From: Chloroflexota bacterium
GTDB lineage: Bacteria > Chloroflexota > Limnocylindria > Limnocylindrales > CSP1-4
DNA length: 7,673 bases
Reading direction: 5' to 3'
NCBI GenBank assembly: GCA_021786915.1
Contig: JAJYMP010000117.1
Location: 1-7,673, forward strand
Shown: positions 1 through 7,673 of the stretch, piece after piece
Position numbering within the stretch: the first letter of the stretch is position 1
How the letters are laid out: each line of letters opens with the position of its first letter
The notes under the pieces: model-generated
Told to the model about the DNA's origin: nothing
What the model saw: the letters and a program-made list of their open reading frames with translations, nothing else
The model's database searches: none
Program-made: the position numbers and the translations under genes

Positions 1-657
1 GGGGCGCGGCTCCACGCCCGGGCGCGGGGCGAGGAGACGGAGCAGTTCCGGCCGCGCCGCGCCGCGGAGCGGATGGCGCTGGGGTTGCCGCTGGACCCGC
101 CCGCGGAGGGGCTCGACGCGCTGCGGTTCGTGCTCCGTCGGCTGGCGGCGACGCTCGCCGACCAGCTGGCGGCGCGGGGCCAGGCGGCGGGGCTGGCGCG
201 CCTCGCGATCACCCACGACCTGGCGTTCGCGCGACGGGGGACGCCGTCGGAGCTCCGCCTCGAGCAGCGGTTCCCCGAGCCCACCGCGGACGCCGAGGCG
301 ATCGAGCGGCTGCTGTTCGCGCGCCTCGAGGGGTCGCCGCCGCCGGCTGCCGTGGCACGCCTGGAGCTCGAGCTCGGGCTGGTCGATTCGGCGCGCGGCC
401 AGCAGCTTCCGCTGTTCACGCCCCAGGCCGCTCGCGGGGCGCGCCTGGAGTGGCAGCTGGCCCGGCTCGCGATCGCGTTCGGGGCGGATCGGGTCCGACG
501 CGTGGAGGTGGGCGATCCGGAGGCGCCGCTCGCCGAGGAGCGCTGGGCGTGGCTGCCGGTGGCAGGCACTGACGTGACCGGAAGGCCAGCCGGAGGGCTC
601 ACCCGCGTCGACCGACCCGGCATTAGGCCGTCCGCGGCGACAGGACCTGCCCGATGA
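1..657 (+). CDS. imuB: ImuB-like Y-family polymerase homologue, C-terminal part
   Basis: The frame is open from the left edge, so only the last 218 residues are present; the catalytic-type fingers/palm region lies outside. The visible part matches the little-finger-like and C-terminal regions of the ImuB family: an ERMALGLPLDPP segment near residues 24-34, then a helical stretch (40-60), then beta-rich sequence. At residues 135-139 (bases 403-417) is QLPLF, a textbook beta-clamp-binding pentapeptide. A comparable clamp motif is known in mycobacterial ImuB. In that family ImuB is a polymerase-like adaptor bringing DnaE2 to the sliding clamp for mutagenic lesion bypass. The stop overlaps the start of the next gene (ATGA at 654-657), indicating translational coupling. 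That DUF6504-type neighbour and dnaE2 3.5 kb downstream support the assignment. It could instead be an active DinB-type Pol IV; the missing N-terminus prevents checking the catalytic acidic residues. Confidence 0.75.
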   Translation, partial: GARLHARARGEETEQFRPRRAAERMALGLPLDPPAEGLDALRFVLRRLAATLADQLAARGQAAGLARLAITHDLAFARRGTPSELRLEQRFPEPTADAEAIERLLFARLEGSPPPAAVARLELELGLVDSARGQQLPLFTPQAARGARLEWQLARLAIAFGADRVRRVEVGDPEAPLAEERWAWLPVAGTDVTGRPAGGLTRVDRPGIRPSAATGPAR

Positions 658-902
658 CCCGCCTGCTGCGTGAGCATCCGCCCGTGGACGCCGAGCTCGA
701 TGACGCCGGCTGCCTCGTCGCGATCAGCTGGAACGGCCGCCGCGAGCCCGTCGAGGTCTGCAACCGCTGGCGCGTGGAGGAGTCCTGGTGGCGCGAGCCT
801 ATCGCGCGCGACTACTTCAAGGTCGTCGGCCCGACTTGGCTGGCGCTCGTCTACCGGGATCGCATCGCCGGGACGTGGCACCTGGAGCGCCTGTACGACT
901 GA
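654..902 (+). CDS. DUF6504-type small protein of the ImuB/DnaE2 cassette
   Basis: This encodes 82 residues. It starts at the ATG overlapping the imuB stop by four bases and ends TGA at 900-902. The sequence is rich in Trp, Arg and acidic residues, with RWRVEESWWRE (about residues 38-48), DYFKV (53-57) and a C-terminal YRDR...W.LERLYD. This pattern is typical of the DUF6504 small proteins found beside imuB and dnaE2 in high-GC bacteria. No membrane segment or signal peptide is visible. The family's biochemical role is not established; position and coupling suggest it works with, or is co-expressed with, the SOS mutasome. A hairpin ten bases after the stop probably ends the transcript, so dnaE2 is not read from this operon. 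The family call is from recognition of the motif pattern and was not searched. Confidence 0.8.
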   Translation: MTRLLREHPPVDAELDDAGCLVAISWNGRREPVEVCNRWRVEESWWREPIARDYFKVVGPTWLALVYRDRIAGTWHLERLYD

Positions 903-1499: not shown

Positions 1500-2057
1500 T
1501 CAGCCGCCGCCGGCGCACCCGGCGCCGAACAGCACGCTGATCAACGTGGAATCGCCCTGCGGCTTGACGGTGACCTGGGCCTTGCACGCCGGCAGGTCGC
1601 CCTGGACGTCGACCACCCGCGACCCGTCCTCCAGGGCGCTCCCGACGTCCACCTTGGGGAAGCCGGCCGCCAGGAGCGCATCGCGGTACCAGGTCGCGAC
1701 CTCGGACACCGACGCCTTCGACACCCACGCCCCGCTGACGGGCCCGTCGGGCGGAGCGTCGGCCACGGTGGCGGCCGGGAAGACCGGGAACGCCGCCGGC
1801 ACGGCGTCGAGGATCCGGCCCCACGGCGTCTGCGTGGTGCCGACGGGGGTGGCGCCGGGTGCAGACGCCGCCGAGCTGGAGTGCGGCGCCGGCGAGCTCG
1901 TGCCGGGCTCCGTCGCACGCACGGCGGCCGAGGCCGCGGGCGTTCGGGCCGCACTCACCACCGGTGATGCAGCCGGGGTGGCGACCGGCGATCCGGTGCA
2001 GGCGCCGAGCGCAAGCGCGAGGGCCAGCAGGCAGGCAGGGAGGACGGCGGATCGCAT
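1500..2057 (-). CDS. Secreted lipoprotein with Ser/Thr/Ala/Pro linker, unknown function
   Basis: This encodes 185 residues. The start at 2057-2055 gives a canonical lipoprotein signal: an MR head, hydrophobic core (LPACLLALALAL), and lipobox LGAC with Cys20 as the lipidated residue. Residues 21 to about 78 are a low-complexity Ser/Thr/Ala/Pro linker typical of surface lipoproteins crossing a thick wall or envelope. Residues 80-185 look globular, with WYRDALLAAGF, then DGSRVVDVQGD, then two cysteines near the end (LPAC and GAGC) that could form a disulfide. That pattern resembles small unclassified lipoproteins of high-GC bacteria; no enzyme motif is visible. An in-frame ATG 51 codons upstream is rejected because it would bury the signal peptide. 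A -10-like TACGAT six bases before the start suggests a leaderless or nearly leaderless mRNA. The 32-residue membrane protein gene follows 20 bases downstream. Confidence 0.85.
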   Translation of the reverse strand: MRSAVLPACLLALALALGACTGSPVATPAASPVVSAARTPAASAAVRATEPGTSSPAPHSSSAASAPGATPVGTTQTPWGRILDAVPAAFPVFPAATVADAPPDGPVSGAWVSKASVSEVATWYRDALLAAGFPKVDVGSALEDGSRVVDVQGDLPACKAQVTVKPQGDSTLISVLFGAGCAGGG

Positions 2058-2063
2058 GACCGC

Positions 2064-2091
2064 ATCGTAGCCCCCGCGACGCCCCGTGCAA
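2064..2091 (-). promoter_or_regulatory. Promoter of the lipoprotein operon, likely leaderless
   Basis: On the minus strand, TTGCAC (2091-2086) and TACGAT (2069-2064) are separated by 16 bases, a fair sigma-70-type match. Only six bases separate the -10 element from the lipoprotein ATG (2057). Transcription would therefore begin at or next to the start codon, giving a leaderless message. No convincing Shine-Dalgarno sequence is present there. Confidence 0.5.
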
Positions 2092-2095
2092 GAAG

Positions 2096-2125
2096 GGACC
2101 CCCGCCGACGAATCGACGGGGGTCC
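2096..2125 (-). terminator. Strong hairpin terminator upstream of the lipoprotein promoter
   Basis: GGACCCCCG pairs perfectly with CGGGGGTCC; after one mismatch two more pairs follow, around the 6-base loop ACGAAT (12-base arms in total). On the minus strand TTCTT follows at 2094-2090, a short T-rich tail; the plus-strand side has none. It would therefore stop minus-strand transcripts, such as one from the 2227-2358 frame, just before the lipoprotein promoter. Confidence 0.6.
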
Positions 2126-2226
2126 GAGTCACGGTCCGCCGACTGCGAGGAGCCGGTCGGGCCAGGTCGGCGGTCGCCATCGCCTGCGGCCGTCGCCGTG
2201 AGGAGGTCATCTTGGGGACGGCCGGC

Positions 2227-2358: not shown

Positions 2359-2455
2359 GCCGCGTGAGACGCGCGAGGCGCTCCGTTGGTTGCGCTCCGG
2401 GCGGCGCTCGCCCGAGCCGATCGTACGGGCTGGCCGGGGCCGAGGAGGCCGCCGA

Positions 2456-2461
2456 TACAAT
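2456..2461 (+). promoter_or_regulatory. -10 element for a leaderless HAD/pentapeptide operon
   Basis: TACAAT, a near-consensus -10 hexamer, ends eight bases before the ATG at 2470, which places the expected transcription start at about the start codon. No Shine-Dalgarno is visible in those eight bases and no clear -35 is seen upstream. This matches leaderless promoters of high-GC bacteria. Confidence 0.5.
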
Positions 2462-2469
2462 CCTCGCTC

Positions 2470-3132
2470 ATGACCGCCCTCGTTCTGCCCCGACGCTTCC
2501 GTGCCGTGCTGTTCGACATGGACGGCCTGCTGGTCGACTCCGAGCCGCTGTGGGCCGAGGCCGAGGCCGAGCTGCTCGAGCGCCACGGCGACCGCCTCAC
2601 CGAGGCCGACCGGGAGGCCAGCCACGGCCGCGCCCTTCCCGACTCCGCCCGCGCCTACTCCAAGCGGCTCGGCGGCATGGACGCGGCGCTCATCGAGGCG
2701 GAGCTGCTTGACCTCATGCGGGCGAAGTACCTCGCCGGCGCACCGCTCCACCGGGGCGCCGCGGAGCTTGTCCAGGCCCTGGTGGGCCGCGTGAGGCTGG
2801 GTGTCGCCACGTCCACCACGACGCCGCTGGTCGAGCTCGCGCTCCGCGGCGCGGGGCTGCTCGACGCGTTCGAGATCGTGGCGTCGGGCTCGGACCTCGG
2901 TGCAGGGAAGCCCGACCCGACCGTGTTCATCGAGGGCTGCCGGCTGCTCTCGACCGACCCGGAGCACGCCATCGCCTTCGAGGATTCGCCGGTGGGCGTC
3001 CAGGCGGCGCGGGCAGCGGGCATGTTCGTCGTGGGCGTGCCCGACCGTCCGGGCGTGGGGCCGGCGCTGATCAGCTCGGGGGCGGACCTGCTGATCGATT
3101 CGCTCGAGGACGTCGTGGTCGAGGGGACCTGA
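2470..3132 (+). CDS. HAD-superfamily hydrolase, beta-phosphoglucomutase-like
   Basis: This 220-residue protein is of normal length for HAD subfamily IA. All four motifs are present: motif I FDMDG with nucleophile D16 and acid/base D18; motif II GVATSTTT with T114; motif III GAGKPDP with K147; motif IV FEDSPVGVQAA with E171 and D172 for Mg2+. The helical cap lies at about residues 20-90. Such enzymes hydrolyse small phosphate esters (sugar phosphates, phosphoglycolate, nucleotides) in the cytosol or isomerise hexose phosphates; the substrate cannot be read from sequence. The start at 2470 fits family starts and lies eight bases after a -10 element; an upstream in-frame ATG at 2386 would add an Arg/Pro-rich tail and is rejected. 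The next gene starts one base after the stop, so the two are translationally coupled. Confidence 0.93.
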   Translation: MTALVLPRRFRAVLFDMDGLLVDSEPLWAEAEAELLERHGDRLTEADREASHGRALPDSARAYSKRLGGMDAALIEAELLDLMRAKYLAGAPLHRGAAELVQALVGRVRLGVATSTTTPLVELALRGAGLLDAFEIVASGSDLGAGKPDPTVFIEGCRLLSTDPEHAIAFEDSPVGVQAARAAGMFVVGVPDRPGVGPALISSGADLLIDSLEDVVVEGT

Positions 3133-3133
3133 G

Positions 3134-3814
3134 GTGGAGGTGATCGGAGGCGCGAAGCCGGCGACGAGGCCGGGCGCACCGCGCGAGGTGGCTCTGCCCG
3201 AGGTGATGACCTCGTTCGCCGGGGCGAGCCTCGAGCCGCATGGCGACTACGATGCCGTCCGGTTCGCCGGCCTCGATCTCGGCGGTCGGGCCGCTGACGA
3301 CGCCGCGTTCCTCGGCTGCCACATCGAGCGGTGCCGGCTCGACGGGGTGTCGATGCGCCGGGTGCGGATCTCCGAGTGCCGGATCGAGGAGCTGGGCGCC
3401 GCGAGCATCGACGCGGCCGACTCGGTCTGGCGCGACACCCTGGTCACGGTCCGGCGAGTCGGCGCGCTGCTCTCGACCGGGGGCTCGTGGACGTCGGTGC
3501 GGGTCCGCGGCGGGCGTCTGGACCTCGTCGACCTCTCAGGCGCGAAGCTCGCCACCGTGGCGTTCGAGGGGTGCGTGATCGGCGAGCTGGACCTGGGCAC
3601 CGTCGAGGCGCGAGACCTGTCGTTCGAGGGCTGCGCGATCGAGCTGCTCGACCTGACCGGGGCGCGCCTCGTCCGCACGGACCTCACGGGCGCCTCGATC
3701 GGCGGGGTCCGCGGCGTCGCCGGGCTTCGCGGCGCGACGCTCACGCCGGCGCAGGTCGCGGACCTCGCCCCGGTGATGGCCGCCCATCTGGGGATCAAGG
3801 TCCGCGAGGCCTGA
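3134..3814 (+). CDS. Pentapeptide-repeat protein
   Basis: This 226-residue protein uses a GTG start with GAGGGG seven bases upstream, one base after the HAD stop. From about residue 42 to 191 it can be written in one unbroken 5-residue register with a hydrophobic or small residue at position i-2 (Val, Cys, Leu, Ala) and Leu/Ile/Phe/Met at i, for example CRLDG, VSMRR, VRISE, VDLSG, AKLAT, VAFEG, ARLVR, TDLTG. That is about 30 pentapeptides, enough for seven coils of a right-handed quadrilateral beta-helix. A C-terminal helix follows (TPAQVADLAPVMAAHLGI). Some members (MfpA, Qnr) mimic DNA and bind gyrase, protecting it from quinolones; most have no known role. This one is degenerate around residues 87-125 and not clearly MfpA-like. 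It ends 7 bases from the convergent GyrI-like gene. Confidence 0.85.
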   Translation: MEVIGGAKPATRPGAPREVALPEVMTSFAGASLEPHGDYDAVRFAGLDLGGRAADDAAFLGCHIERCRLDGVSMRRVRISECRIEELGAASIDAADSVWRDTLVTVRRVGALLSTGGSWTSVRVRGGRLDLVDLSGAKLATVAFEGCVIGELDLGTVEARDLSFEGCAIELLDLTGARLVRTDLTGASIGGVRGVAGLRGATLTPAQVADLAPVMAAHLGIKVREA

Positions 3815-3821
3815 CGCGCGT

Positions 3822-4304
3822 TCAGCCCACCGCGACCGGCACCCTCCTCACCGGGAACTCGACGATCGTCTCGACGCGCTCGGGCGGTGTGGACGGCTCG
3901 CTCAGGTACACCTCCCGCGCCGGGCCGGCGATCGTCAGCCCGTGCTCCGGGATCCACGTCGTCAGCGCGATGTGGGTCGCCTCCACCGTGTCGTACGGCC
4001 CGACGTGCTTCCGGCTCGCGAACGTGCCCGCCGGCAGGTCCACCAGCCGCCACGGGTCGCGCGGCTCGAGCGAGCCGCCCACCGGCGCGCAGATCTCGAT
4101 GTCCATCGGCTCACCCGGCGTCGGCATCGAGTGGTAGATGACGAACGGCGGGCCGGCCGCCTCCGCCTCGGCCGCGCGGATGAGCGCGTACACCTCGCCG
4201 AACGCCTGCCCCAGGGTCGGCCCGATCTGCTCGATGGCGACCGACACGCGCTTCGAGACGACCCGCAGGACGGGCCGGTCGACCACATGGACCGCGTGCT
4301 CCAT
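3822..4304 (-). CDS. GyrI-like / effector-binding domain protein
   Basis: This 160-residue stand-alone protein starts at ATG 4304-4302 with AGGAGG six bases upstream (4316-4311), which decides against the in-frame ATG 13 codons earlier. Typical features of the GyrI-like (BmrR/AraC effector-binding) fold appear in order: an N-terminal strand (VHVVDRPVLRVVS), a helix (about 26-48), PPFVIYH (52-58), DIEICAPVGG (68-77), LPAGTFASRKHVGPYD (90-105), and E131 in REVYLSEP, the position of the conserved ligand-binding glutamate. No DNA-binding domain is attached. Family members bind amphipathic small molecules or, like E. coli SbmC/GyrI, inhibit gyrase. The gene is divergent from dnaE2, with the SOS box about 107 bases from its start. 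It is convergent with the pentapeptide-repeat gene, with no terminator in the 7-base gap. Confidence 0.85.
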   Translation of the reverse strand: MEHAVHVVDRPVLRVVSKRVSVAIEQIGPTLGQAFGEVYALIRAAEAEAAGPPFVIYHSMPTPGEPMDIEICAPVGGSLEPRDPWRLVDLPAGTFASRKHVGPYDTVEATHIALTTWIPEHGLTIAGPAREVYLSEPSTPPERVETIVEFPVRRVPVAVG

Positions 4305-4400
4305 GACACGCCTCCTCACCAAGCCGTCGCAGCTCGCGGGCAACGGCCGCAGGGGCGATCCTCGGGGGGTGATGCGGCGGCCGCCAGAGGCCTTCGGCTC

Positions 4401-4429
4401 TTGCCGATCTAGAACGTCCGTTCTATCCT
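4401..4429 (+). promoter_or_regulatory. dnaE2 promoter
   Basis: TTGCCG (4401-4406) and TATCCT (4424-4429) are separated by exactly 17 bases. Transcription would start near 4436, giving a leader of about 20 bases that includes GGAG (4445-4448), eight bases before the GTG start at 4457. The LexA-type box fills the downstream half of the spacer and touches the -10 element, an arrangement expected for repression. Confidence 0.75.
4411..4424 (+). promoter_or_regulatory. SOS (LexA) box
   Basis: AGAACGTCCGTTCT contains a perfect GAAC-N4-GTTC core flanked by A/T, the LexA operator type known from Bacillus and mycobacteria. It lies between the -35 and -10 of dnaE2, a known SOS gene family, so damage-inducible control is strongly suggested. 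It also lies in the intergenic region shared with the divergent GyrI-like gene, about 107 bases before that start, and could affect it as well. Confidence 0.85.
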
Positions 4430-4456: not shown

Positions 4457-7400
4457 GTGGCCACCATCCCCTTCGCCGAGCTGCACTGCCACACCTACTT
4501 CTCGTTCCTCGACGGGGCGTCGGCCCCGGACGACATCGTCGAGCGGGCGGCCGAGCTGGGCCTCGCCGGGCTGGCGGTCACGGACCACAACGGGCTGTAC
4601 GGCGCCGTCCGCTTCACGAGTGCGGCGGAGGCTGCGGGGATCCACCCGGTCGTCGGCATCGAGATCGAGCTGCTGGACCCGTGCGTGCCGGACCCGGGCG
4701 GGATCGCGGTGCCGGGGCGACGGGCGTGGCGCCCGGGCCGGCGGCGGCCAACGCCGCAGCCCGAACTCCCGTGCCCGGTGGAGGGCCGACCGGCTCGCCC
4801 CCGGCCCGAGCGCGCCCTGCTGCCCGGCCACCGCGAGGTGCGCAAGGAGGACCACCGGGGGATCGGCGAGGCGGAGCGCGGCCCGCACCTGGTGCTGCTC
4901 GCACGGAACGAGGCAGGCTGGCGGAGCCTGTGCCGGATGGCGTCACGGGCGAACCTGGCCGGGACGAAAGCGGTGCCGAAATTCACCCACGAGCTGCTGG
5001 CGGCGAACGCCGAGGGGCTGGTGGCGCTGTCGGGGTGCCGGCACGGGGAGATCGCGCGGCGCCTGCGGGCCGGCGACCGCGAGGGCGCGCGCGCGGCGGC
5101 CGAGCGGTACGCGCTGCTGTTCGGCTCGGCATCGGCTTCGCCCGGCTCCGCATCGGCCTCGTCGGCGTCGGCTGCGTCCGGCTCGTCGTCTTCGGCGGCC
5201 GCGGCCGGCTTCGTCCTCGAGCTCTCGCACCACCTGCTCCCCGACGACGACTGGCTGGCGTCCGAGACCGCGCGCCTGGCCGACGAGCTGGGCCTGCCGA
5301 CCGTCGTCACGAACGACGTCCACTACGCCCGCCCCGACGGCCGCGAACTGCACGACGTCCTCACCGCCATCCGCCATGGCCGGACGCTGGCCGACCTGCG
5401 CGAGCTGCGCCGCCACGACGGCGAGTCATACCTCAAGGACGCCGACGATCTGCTCGCGCTGCCGCCGGGGGAGCCGACCATCGCCGCAGCCGACCCCGTG
5501 CTGGCGCGGGCCTGGCGCGAGGGGATCGCGAACTCGGTCGAGATCGCCGCCGCCTGCCACGTGGCGCTGACCTTCGAGCGCTACCGCTTCCCGGGCTTCG
5601 AGGTGCCGCGGGGCGAGACGCCGTTCAGCCACCTGTCGGGGCTGTGCTGGGAGGGCGCGCGCCGCCGGTACCACCCGTTCACGCCCCAGGTCATGCGCCA
5701 GCTGGCCCACGAGCTCGACGTCATCGAGAAGACCGGGCTCGCCGAGTTCTTCCTGATCTGCTGGGACCTGATGCAGTTCGCGAAGCGGCAGCGCATCCCG
5801 GCGCAGGGCCGGGGGTCGGCGGCGGACTCGATCGTGGCCTACGTGCTGGGGATCACCCGCGTGGACCCGATCCGCCACGAGCTGCTGTTCGAGCGGTTCA
5901 TCAACGAGGGGCGGACGGCCTACCCCGACGTGGACATCGACTTCAGCTCCGAGCGCCGGGAGGAGGTGATCCAGTACGTCTACCGCAAGTACGGGCCCGA
6001 GCACACGGGGATGGTGTGCAACCTGGTCACGTACCGGGCGCGGTCGGCGGTGCGCGAGGTGGGGTCCGCGCTCGGGTTCCCACGGCCGCTCGTGGACCGG
6101 GTGGCGAAGGCGCTCGAGACGTACGACAGCGTGATGGTCCGCCGCGACCTCGAGACCGAGGGCGGGTTCGCGCAGTTCTTCGCGCGGCCGGGCGAGGAGG
6201 GGGCCGCCGCCCCGTTGCCGGCACCCGACACGACGACGCTCGGCCTCACCGATTCGATGGGCCAGCTCAACCACGCGCGGGGCGGGCGGATCCGGACCGG
6301 CGCGCCCTCGTCCGCGCCCGCGCCCGGTCCCTCGCCCGCGCCCGGTCCCTCGCCCGCGCCCGCGCCCGCGGCCGCACCGCCGCCCGCGGCCGCACCGCCG
6401 CCCGCGGCCGCACCGCCGCCCGCGGCCGCACCGCCGCCCGCGGCCGCACCGCCGCCCGCGGCCGTGCCCCCATTCACGAACCAGGCTCGTGGTATCCCGG
6501 GAGCACCACGGGTGGGACGCCCGGTAGCGCGCGCGGTCCAGCCGCCCGAGACGGGCTCGAGCGTGGACTCGTCGGCGGCGACGACCTCGACGAAGCAGCG
6601 TCGTGTTGGGCGCGGCACCCCTGGCCGCGACGCGCCGAGCACGAAGGAGGCTCGTGCATGGCGGCAGGTTGGCGTCCCGACGGCGATTGCACGAACGGGG
6701 CTCGTGGGTGGTGGCCCCACCGGCGGCGTCGGCGATCCGGGCCCGGAGAGCACGAGCGGTGGTCGTGATCGGGGGGCCGCGGGCAGCGGCACCTGGGAGG
6801 GCGCCCCGGGCTCGGCACCGGCGATCCGCGGCGGGGGCGCCGACGACAAGGGCGGCCCCGGCGACACGCCCGCGAGCGTCGCCTGGCTGCGGGCGGGTCG
6901 CGGCACGGGGTACACGACTGAGCACCACCCCGGCCGAGGTGAGCGCCCCGGCAGCCACGGCACCGAGCGATGGGCGCCCTATCGCGAGGCGAAGCGGAAC
7001 CTCGACGAGGAGGTCGCCCGACGGCTGGACCCGGAGACCGGGATCCTCCTCCCCGAGGACCGGCGCTTCGACCCCCGGGTCGGTGGGGATCGGGAGGGGG
7101 GTCGCTCCGACCATGACGCGGGCGCCAGCAGCGTCGCCCGCCTCGACCCGCCCGTGCCGCCCGCCGGCTCGGACCCGGAGCATCGCGGCTCGGTGGCGCG
7201 CCTCTCGGACTGGGAGCGCTGGCTGGAGCTGTGCGCCCGCATCGACGGCTTCCCGCGCCACCTCTCGATCCACTCGGGCGGGATGCTGGTGACCGCGGCG
7301 CCGCTGATCGACATCGCGCCGATCGAGCGCGCCACGATGAAGGACCGGGTCGTCGTGCAGTACGACAAGCGCGACGTCGAGACGATGAAGCTGATCAAGC

Positions 7401-7673
7401 TCGACCTGCTCGGCCTGGGCATGCTCGCGGCCATCGACGAGACGCTCGGGCTCATCGAGCACGACTGCGCGGTGTGTGTCGACCTCGACCGCATCCCCGA
7501 GGAGATCCCCGAGGTGTTCGAGATGCTCCAGGCCGCCGACACCGTGGGCGTGTTCCAGGTGGAGAGCCGGGCACAGATGCAGACGCTGCCGAAGTCGCGC
7601 CCCCAGAACCTCGACGACCTGGTGGTGGAGGTCGCGATCATCCGTCCGGGCCCGATCCAGGGCAACGCGGTCC
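4457..7673 (+). CDS. dnaE2: Error-prone DNA polymerase DnaE2, N-terminal 1072 codons, with large insertions
   Basis: The frame opens at GTG 4457 (GGAG eight bases upstream) and runs without a stop to the right edge. DnaE2 is a C-family polymerase doing SOS mutagenesis with ImuB. The PHP domain begins ELHCHTYFSFLDGAS (residues 8-22), then AVTDHNGLYG, LSGCRHGE and TNDVHY. The palm has QGRGSAADS (450-458), PDVDIDF with catalytic D493 and D495, RARSAVREVG, GFPRHLSIHSGG, and KLDLLGLG with the third aspartate D983. The end, VGVFQVESRAQMQTLP then IIRPGPIQGNAV, is typical DnaE2. In E. coli DnaE the equivalent aspartates are 401, 403 and 555; here the last gap is 488 instead of 152 residues, owing to a low-complexity insertion at about residues 578-911. 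Further unusual stretches are an Arg/Pro-rich segment (about 75-143) and an Ala/Ser run (224-251). The catalytic residues seen are intact. Confidence 0.95.
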   Translation, partial: MATIPFAELHCHTYFSFLDGASAPDDIVERAAELGLAGLAVTDHNGLYGAVRFTSAAEAAGIHPVVGIEIELLDPCVPDPGGIAVPGRRAWRPGRRRPTPQPELPCPVEGRPARPRPERALLPGHREVRKEDHRGIGEAERGPHLVLLARNEAGWRSLCRMASRANLAGTKAVPKFTHELLAANAEGLVALSGCRHGEIARRLRAGDREGARAAAERYALLFGSASASPGSASASSASAASGSSSSAAAAGFVLELSHHLLPDDDWLASETARLADELGLPTVVTNDVHYARPDGRELHDVLTAIRHGRTLADLRELRRHDGESYLKDADDLLALPPGEPTIAAADPVLARAWREGIANSVEIAAACHVALTFERYRFPGFEVPRGETPFSHLSGLCWEGARRRYHPFTPQVMRQLAHELDVIEKTGLAEFFLICWDLMQFAKRQRIPAQGRGSAADSIVAYVLGITRVDPIRHELLFERFINEGRTAYPDVDIDFSSERREEVIQYVYRKYGPEHTGMVCNLVTYRARSAVREVGSALGFPRPLVDRVAKALETYDSVMVRRDLETEGGFAQFFARPGEEGAAAPLPAPDTTTLGLTDSMGQLNHARGGRIRTGAPSSAPAPGPSPAPGPSPAPAPAAAPPPAAAPPPAAAPPPAAAPPPAAAPPPAAVPPFTNQARGIPGAPRVGRPVARAVQPPETGSSVDSSAATTSTKQRRVGRGTPGRDAPSTKEARAWRQVGVPTAIARTGLVGGGPTGGVGDPGPESTSGGRDRGAAGSGTWEGAPGSAPAIRGGGADDKGGPGDTPASVAWLRAGRGTGYTTEHHPGRGERPGSHGTERWAPYREAKRNLDEEVARRLDPETGILLPEDRRFDPRVGGDREGGRSDHDAGASSVARLDPPVPPAGSDPEHRGSVARLSDWERWLELCARIDGFPRHLSIHSGGMLVTAAPLIDIAPIERATMKDRVVVQYDKRDVETMKLIKLDLLGLGMLAAIDETLGLIEHDCAVCVDLDRIPEEIPEVFEMLQAADTVGVFQVESRAQMQTLPKSRPQNLDDLVVEVAIIRPGPIQGNAV
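6320..6355 (+). repeat. Two 18-base tandem repeats encoding APGPSP
   Basis: GCGCCCGGTCCCTCGCCC occurs twice in direct succession, in frame, giving (Ala-Pro-Gly-Pro-Ser-Pro)2. Further GCGCCC dinucleotide-codon steps precede and follow it. It runs directly into the AAAPPP array. Confidence 0.9.
6368..6464 (+). repeat. Five-plus 18-base tandem repeats encoding AAAPPP
   Basis: GCGGCCGCACCGCCGCCC is present in five exact copies (6368-6457) followed by a partial sixth that breaks at GCGGCCGT. Each copy is in frame and encodes Ala3-Pro3. Each contains the 8-base palindrome GCGGCCGC. Identical copies imply recent slippage or duplication, so copy number probably varies between strains and is prone to assembly error. 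Confidence 0.95.
6475..6767 (+). repeat. Dispersed 17-base inverted-repeat units, CACGA-N7-TCGTG
   Basis: Four copies have perfect 5-base arms and a 7-base centre: 6475-6491, 6640-6656, 6690-6706 and 6751-6767. A fifth with 4-base arms lies at 6589-6605. The first and third read CACGAACCAGGCTCGTG and CACGAACGGGGCTCGTG. One copy (6690) is in a different codon phase from the others, so the conserved unit is DNA or RNA rather than protein. Spacing of the last four copies is 51, 50 and 61 bases. Confidence 0.75.

Follow-up and report, generated by a model that had tools for sequence, protein, structure and literature searches.

An SOS-type DnaE2/ImuC polymerase from an uncultured Limnocylindria-type Chloroflexota bacterium, as its sequence identifies it, carries a long insert in the loop of its thumb helix-loop-helix. 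The gene lies on a 7,673-nt stretch of contig JAJYMP010000117.1 (assembly GCA_021786915.1), called the window throughout. The insert is real and common to a group of uncultured Chloroflexota. Our best explanation, to which we give a probability of about 0.45, is that it forms a flexible thumb arm whose conserved motifs dock a mutasome partner. The underlying anatomy, namely the identity of the polymerase, the place of the insert and its conserved islands within linkers, is near certain, while we infer the partner binding by the motifs, the partner's identity and the effect on the enzyme.

Results

Position and size of the insert

In the window protein, D495 and D983 are 488 residues apart, compared to a minimum of 146 and a median of 149 in Dormibacterota-type DnaE2 (the maximum, 272, reflects a mis-anchored motif). 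From D.D.DF to FPRH the window protein spans 441 residues, while all 120 Dormibacterota-type proteins span 99–102, and the insert therefore adds about 340 residues. A previous annotation made from the letters of the window (the sequence-only reading) had proposed a huge insertion between the catalytic aspartates D493, D495 and D983, using its own figure of 152 residues for E. coli; these residues and their separation were confirmed. It had also described an intact frame with well-preserved flanking blocks, in agreement with Pfam matches to PHP, DNA_pol3_alpha (up to residue 573) and the finger domain (from 989, cut by the window end). Pfam found no domain within the insert of the window protein.

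The same reading had placed the insertion within the palm. In sequence it does lie between the catalytic aspartates, yet the alignment to the solved Taq polymerase locates it outside the palm proper: query 553 pairs with Taq 525, and the alignment resumes at query 907, paired with Taq 543. Because both breakpoints fall inside the duplex-contacting thumb helix-loop-helix of the Taq enzyme, given as Taq 513–552 in the available part of PMC3919608, the insert maps to the thumb loop. The window protein is near the long end of its group, as only 6 of the 118 anchored relatives equal or exceed its length.

The window protein contains the C-family core (PHP, DNA_pol3_alpha and finger), and HhH and OB domains are listed for most relatives (named below as P for proteins, L for loci and G for genomes). 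NCBIfam PRK05672 (error-prone DNA polymerase; cut-off 939 bits) scores 1054.7, 1051.5 and 1065.3 bits on the full-length P0001, P0012 and P0104, and 617 bits on the window protein, which is cut by the window end. In relatives the enzyme is a second alpha subunit beside DnaE1: of seven of their genomes checked, six also encode a polymerase 41–46% identical to it, and no second polymerase was found in the seventh, G006 (1.4 Mb assembly).

Two further low-complexity stretches occur inside the PHP domain, at positions 4679–4885 (residues about 75–143, with low model confidence at 110–137) and at 5126–5206 (residues about 224–250, rich in Ser and Ala, with a short repeat in the coding DNA and low model confidence at 234–241).

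Distribution among relatives

Protein searches listed the best 120 of thousands of matches (for the window query, the best 120 of 6614), and statements about groups cover these listed rows. Scanning a single genome for each species left 80 loci, of which 72 bear Chloroflexota titles. Together with the window, these gave 201 sequences, of which 175 had both anchors (173 distinct rows) and 26 were dropped for lack of an anchor, owing to contig ends, broken frames or variant motifs. Alignment A1 held the window and 114 of the 120 proteins, and alignment A2 held 113 chosen rows.

The D.D.DF to GFPRH distance was 186–554 residues in the 118 of 120 listed proteins that have both anchors, and in-frame inserts of 20–454 residues were found across 169 rows from many different assemblies. 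A misassembly or chimera of the whole insert, as the sequence-only reading had considered, was rejected on this recurrence. DnaE1 paralogues from six genomes of the group have no insert (102–103 residues over the D.D.DF–FPRH stretch), and 14 other Chloroflexota DnaE2 loci (L104–L117, from a 201-genome sample of the phylum) span 101–126 residues.

A second insert-bearing DnaE2 group (P0241–P0360 and L098–L103), some members of which are named Candidatus Limnocylindria, spans 213–351 residues in 120 of 120 listed proteins, using a looser anchor. Its insert has its own long, strongly conserved stretch (VPPGRDGRGSGLVH ... PRDNGSPGPSSGRP ... VDPESGMPVEERRR). Common to both groups is [IV]DPESG[VM] with following arginines (15 columns; hhalign E 7e-4, probability 27%). 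The sequence-only reading had asked whether ordinary DnaE2 proteins carry a domain of this size; two Limnocylindria-type groups do, and the other DnaE2 examined do not. In a quick tree the window groups with 36 rows of its group (SH-like approximate likelihood ratio test, SH-aLRT, 100); the tree leaves the branching order of the window group, the second group and insert-free DnaE2 unsettled, and a sister relation of the two groups was not seen. Nested inside the window group is L046, with 20 residues left at the insert site and masked or unread bases nearby.

Conserved islands within variable linkers

The 173-row alignment revealed four islands, A to D, separated by variable linkers and followed by the thumb helix SDWERWLELCARIDGFPRH (Table 1). 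Block B consists of a W.GAPGS.P.IR stretch and then DDEGGPGDSPASVAWLR.G.GTGY. In the latter element, GGPGD was kept in 167 of 173 rows; the six misses are three insert-free Firmicutes, P0096 (read out of frame), L046 (insert nearly gone) and L043 (motif absent). P801 is invariant in the 115-row alignment, where D797, G799, G800, G802, D803, P805, S807, W810, R812 and G814 are at least 90% conserved. The spacing between blocks A and B varies from 7 to 304 residues among the 156 rows having both.

A genome search with block B matched DnaE2 in 14 of 14 genomes (E 3e-11 or better). Outside DnaE2, the best match among the scored candidates of these genomes had an E of 0.06, where 150 of 164–257 first-look candidates were scored per genome.

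The label of low complexity given by the sequence-only reading was apt for most of the insert, with 78% of it in low-entropy windows, compared to 6% of residues 380–575, 19% of 917–1072 and 50% of 1–379, and it overlooked the conserved motifs hidden among the linkers. P, A, G, S and R make up 66% of the insert, and order-promoting residues 12%, compared to 36–39% in the flanks. The medians over 169 inserts are a net charge of 0 (positive in 65, negative in 84) and an aromatic content of 2.3%.

Selection on the insert

We calculated the ratio of nonsynonymous to synonymous substitution rates (dN/dS) between the window and L001, L002, L003, L004, L005 and L066, of which L003 and L005 end within the insert. 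The ratios were 0.05–0.22 before the insert and 0.05–0.17 after it (four pairs), compared to 0.38–0.56 for the whole insert, 0.46–1.08 for the A–B linker and 0.12–0.37 for block A. For block B, five pairs gave 0.22–0.42; the pair with L001, in which just three changes occur, gave 0.79. The L001 insert is 84% identical over 296 aligned residues and keeps its frame. These sequence comparisons indicate that the insert is translated and loosely constrained, with block A clearly tighter than the linker and block B less so, though its residues persist.

The reading frame shifts within or after the insert in P0096, L057 and L050, by sequencing error in very GC-rich DNA or by real breakage.

Predicted structure

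For the window chain, truncated inside the fingers, the predicted fold is poor (predicted local distance difference test, pLDDT, 58.9). For a compact relative, L071, a stretch of 1140 residues was modelled, including an insert of 121 residues in which blocks A to C are present; its model has a pLDDT of 83.6 and a predicted template modelling score (pTM) of 0.82, and its best solved-structure matches are C-family polymerases. Most ten-residue means of the core are about 90 or above, up to residue 540 and from 681, while the thumb helices just ahead of the insert (546–563) have a pLDDT of 55–72. Within the insert, residues 582–634 and 655–678 are below 50, the ten residues around DPESG average 61, and a weak helix covers PASVAWLQ. 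No part of the insert was docked confidently on the polymerase in this model. The insert is thus predicted to be a mostly disordered loop on the thumb, and the expectation of the sequence-only reading, that the polymerase folds around a large loop, is supported by the model.

Gene neighbourhood

A LexA-type box precedes the gene. Of 68 upstream regions, each 300 nt long (the window and those of the L001–L072 and L089–L103 loci that have a placeable start), 65 contain its pattern, GAAC-N4-GTTC. With 104 occurrences across the 700,327 nt of L001–L072, the pattern would be expected by chance in about 3 of 68. Judged by this pattern, the gene is probably under LexA-type control.

Upstream, at the start of the window, lies the 3′ part of an ImuB-like Y-family gene. 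Searching 19 genomes with PF00817 yielded a strong Y-family gene in every genome, and 16 also have a second gene that is divergent. Of the 14 window-group genomes, 10 carry the divergent gene on the dnaE2 contig and three carry it on a different contig; the search found none in G186. Among the five second-group genomes, G015 and G090 have it on the dnaE2 contig (both matches are below the family cut-off), one has it elsewhere and two lack it. The whole gene is present in L124 and L125, where the IMS match starts at model position 22. These two frames contain no S.DE and no D.D.F near the domain start, the only match (DEDRAA/DDDRAA) lying well inside the domain. This lack fits ImuB, described as inactive and, in mycobacteria, as binding DnaE2 via its C-terminal region in the portion of PMC6511836 available; the neighbour here is probably catalytically inactive too. 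QLPLF is found in both whole frames and in the window piece, and QL[PS]L[FW] occurs in a Y-family-like frame at 21 of 72 loci, a total that includes loci that may end short of that gene.

Table 1. Features of the window, with positions counted from its first letter.
Feature	Position	Strand	Details
ImuB-like Y-family gene, 3′ part	1..657	+	IMS_C domain and, at residue 135 of this part, the clamp-type motif QLPLF
82-residue open reading frame	654-902		between ImuB-like gene and dnaE2
Open reading frame without Pfam match	1500-2210	-	between ImuB-like gene and dnaE2
HAD hydrolase	2386-3132		Pfam; its start can also be recognised by eye in L124 and L125
Pentapeptide-repeat protein	3134-3814		between ImuB-like gene and dnaE2
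GyrI-like protein	3822-4343	-	between ImuB-like gene and dnaE2
LexA/SOS-type box	4412..4423	.	GAACGTCCGTTC; pattern GAAC-N4-GTTC; 33 nt ahead of GTG
dnaE2/imuC-type polymerase gene	4457..7672	+	GTG start; cut by window end; 1072 residues present
First catalytic Asp pair	5933..5941	+	codons 493-495; residues 493 and 495 read as Asp
Insert	6182..7204	+	residues 576-916; within loop of thumb helix-loop-helix
Block A	6242..6289	+	GLTDSMGQLNHARGGR; residues 596-611; alignment; pattern GLTDxMGQLNHxRGGR
Repeat array coding Pro/Ala-rich stretch	6301..6469	+	perfect 36-base units at 6363-6464; array short in P0001 and L001
Block B	6788..6913	+	core DDKGGPGDTPASVAWLR; residues 778-819; alignment, motif count, genome search
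Block C	7019..7075	+	RRLDPETGILLPEDRRFDP; residues 855-873; pattern RRxDPESGxL.P..RR.D; DPESG-type motif also in second group
Block D	7106..7153	+	SDHDAGASSVARLDPP; residues 884-899; alignment; pattern SSVARxEP
Return to conserved core	7181..7234	+	HRGSVARLSDWERWLELC; residues 909-926; alignment
Third catalytic Asp	7403..7405	+	codon 983; residue 983 read as Asp

Discussion

A proposed docking arm on the thumb

We favour a docking arm because the motifs are fixed in order and free in spacing, sit in disordered linkers on the thumb, and occur in one polymerase only. The long flexible arm would occupy the loop of the thumb helix-loop-helix, a region that touches the DNA duplex in the Taq enzyme, and its fast-evolving linkers, translated in frame, would tether the short conserved motifs (A and B, then C and D). 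Most likely, the motifs would fold upon binding a mutasome partner. Docking could then link the thumb to a factor for loading or processivity, as thumb insertions do in some other polymerases. Among candidate partners, we rank ImuB, which carries a clamp motif, first, followed by RecA or a replication factor. Partner binding had been one option of the sequence-only reading and is favoured here because the insert holds conserved short motifs, although binding itself is something we infer from sequence. A bolder proposal, which we regard as doubtful, is that a Limnocylindria-type disordered thumb arm recruits a dedicated partner that gates or speeds lesion bypass, a mutasome route absent from the other DnaE2 examined.

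Several observations weigh against the docking arm. The dN/dS of block B is little below the insert average, and blocks C and D are patchy: of 173 rows, 87 contain DPE[ST]G and 109 contain S[SG]VAR. The canonical clamp motif was found in none of the 169 inserts, and GGPGD in none of the 120 listed proteins of the second group. Because the L046 insert is nearly gone and L043 lacks GGPGD, the arm can be lost and is dispensable in some members. Lastly, DnaE2 core length rises with GC content across bacteria at large (rho 0.58, in the part of PMC3919608 available), which is consistent with a neutral origin.

That correlation belongs to an explanation by mostly neutral growth, in which a permissive loop of a non-essential polymerase expanded by repeat slippage in GC-rich genomes, and the islands are left over from a thumb element specific to the lineage, whose local role is modest. 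The perfect tandem array of the window, which near relatives carry in short form, the upper end of the linker dN/dS and the near loss of the L046 insert all point the same way. Within the group, however, insert length has no relation to GC content (rho 0.03, p 0.83, 50 loci), GGPGD persists despite complete linker turnover, and DnaE1 is insert-free in all six of the same genomes; we consider this growth unlikely. Slightly less probable still is that the motifs act on the polymerase core or on DNA, folding back as an autoinhibitory lid or as an additional hold on DNA, to be remodelled in the course of bypass. Its appeal lies in the location, as the thumb loop is the duplex contact site in Taq DnaE (PMC3919608), thumb insertions of plant organellar polymerases work on DNA in lesion bypass (PMC7699545), and a thumb loop of M. 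smegmatis DnaE1, absent from DnaE2, enters the major groove (PMC12641269), each as stated in the available parts of these papers. The L071 model's lack of confident docking and the neutral median charge, compared to a lysine-rich plant insertion, argue the other way.

A phase-separating or crowding tail without specific contacts, also suggested by the sequence-only reading, would suit the low complexity and predicted disorder of the insert; with few aromatics, little net charge and strict short motifs, it is highly improbable. A misassembled, chimeric or broken gene is more improbable again. Errors do occur in such GC-rich DNA, as P0096 is out of frame and L057 loses its frame, and the assembled length of the array in the window may be inexact, but comparable inserts with the same motifs recur across many other assemblies, and the closely similar L001 insert has an intact frame.

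Comparison with known systems

We found no description of this thumb insert in the open-access literature searched. A paper discussing the loss of repair genes in Limnocylindraceae does not contain the terms dnaE and imuB in the part available (PMC13212565). Little is known of how the mutasome holds DnaE2, and the purified enzyme is difficult to handle, according to the accessible portion of PMC12641269; the near-invariant thumb motifs give concrete peptides for finding the missing contacts.

The window polymerase shares with DnaE2/ImuC its PHP, palm, thumb, fingers and HhH, its role as a second alpha subunit beside DnaE1, a LexA-type box and an ImuB-like neighbour. What sets it apart is the roughly 340 additional residues of its thumb loop, conserved motifs among them; Dormibacterota-type proteins are uniformly short there. 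The second insert-bearing group has the same insert site and the shared [IV]DPESG[VM], but has no GGPGD and carries a long conserved stretch of its own.

A polymerase thumb, as the window group shows, tolerates inserts of 20 to more than 450 residues at one spot. The T7 and human mitochondrial DNA polymerases belong to an unrelated polymerase family (A). Both bind processivity factors via thumb insertions, and the T7 thumb domain, which binds thioredoxin, acts as a clamp on DNA (PMC7699545 and PMC5984650, in the parts available); the insert described here could likewise carry a partner. Those systems have a defined partner and a measured effect, whereas the present insert is known from its sequence. 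Plant organellar polymerases likewise have lineage-specific thumb insertions linked to lesion bypass; according to the same portion of PMC7699545, their insertion 1 is lysine-rich and acts on DNA, in contrast to the median net charge of 0 among the inserts of the window group.

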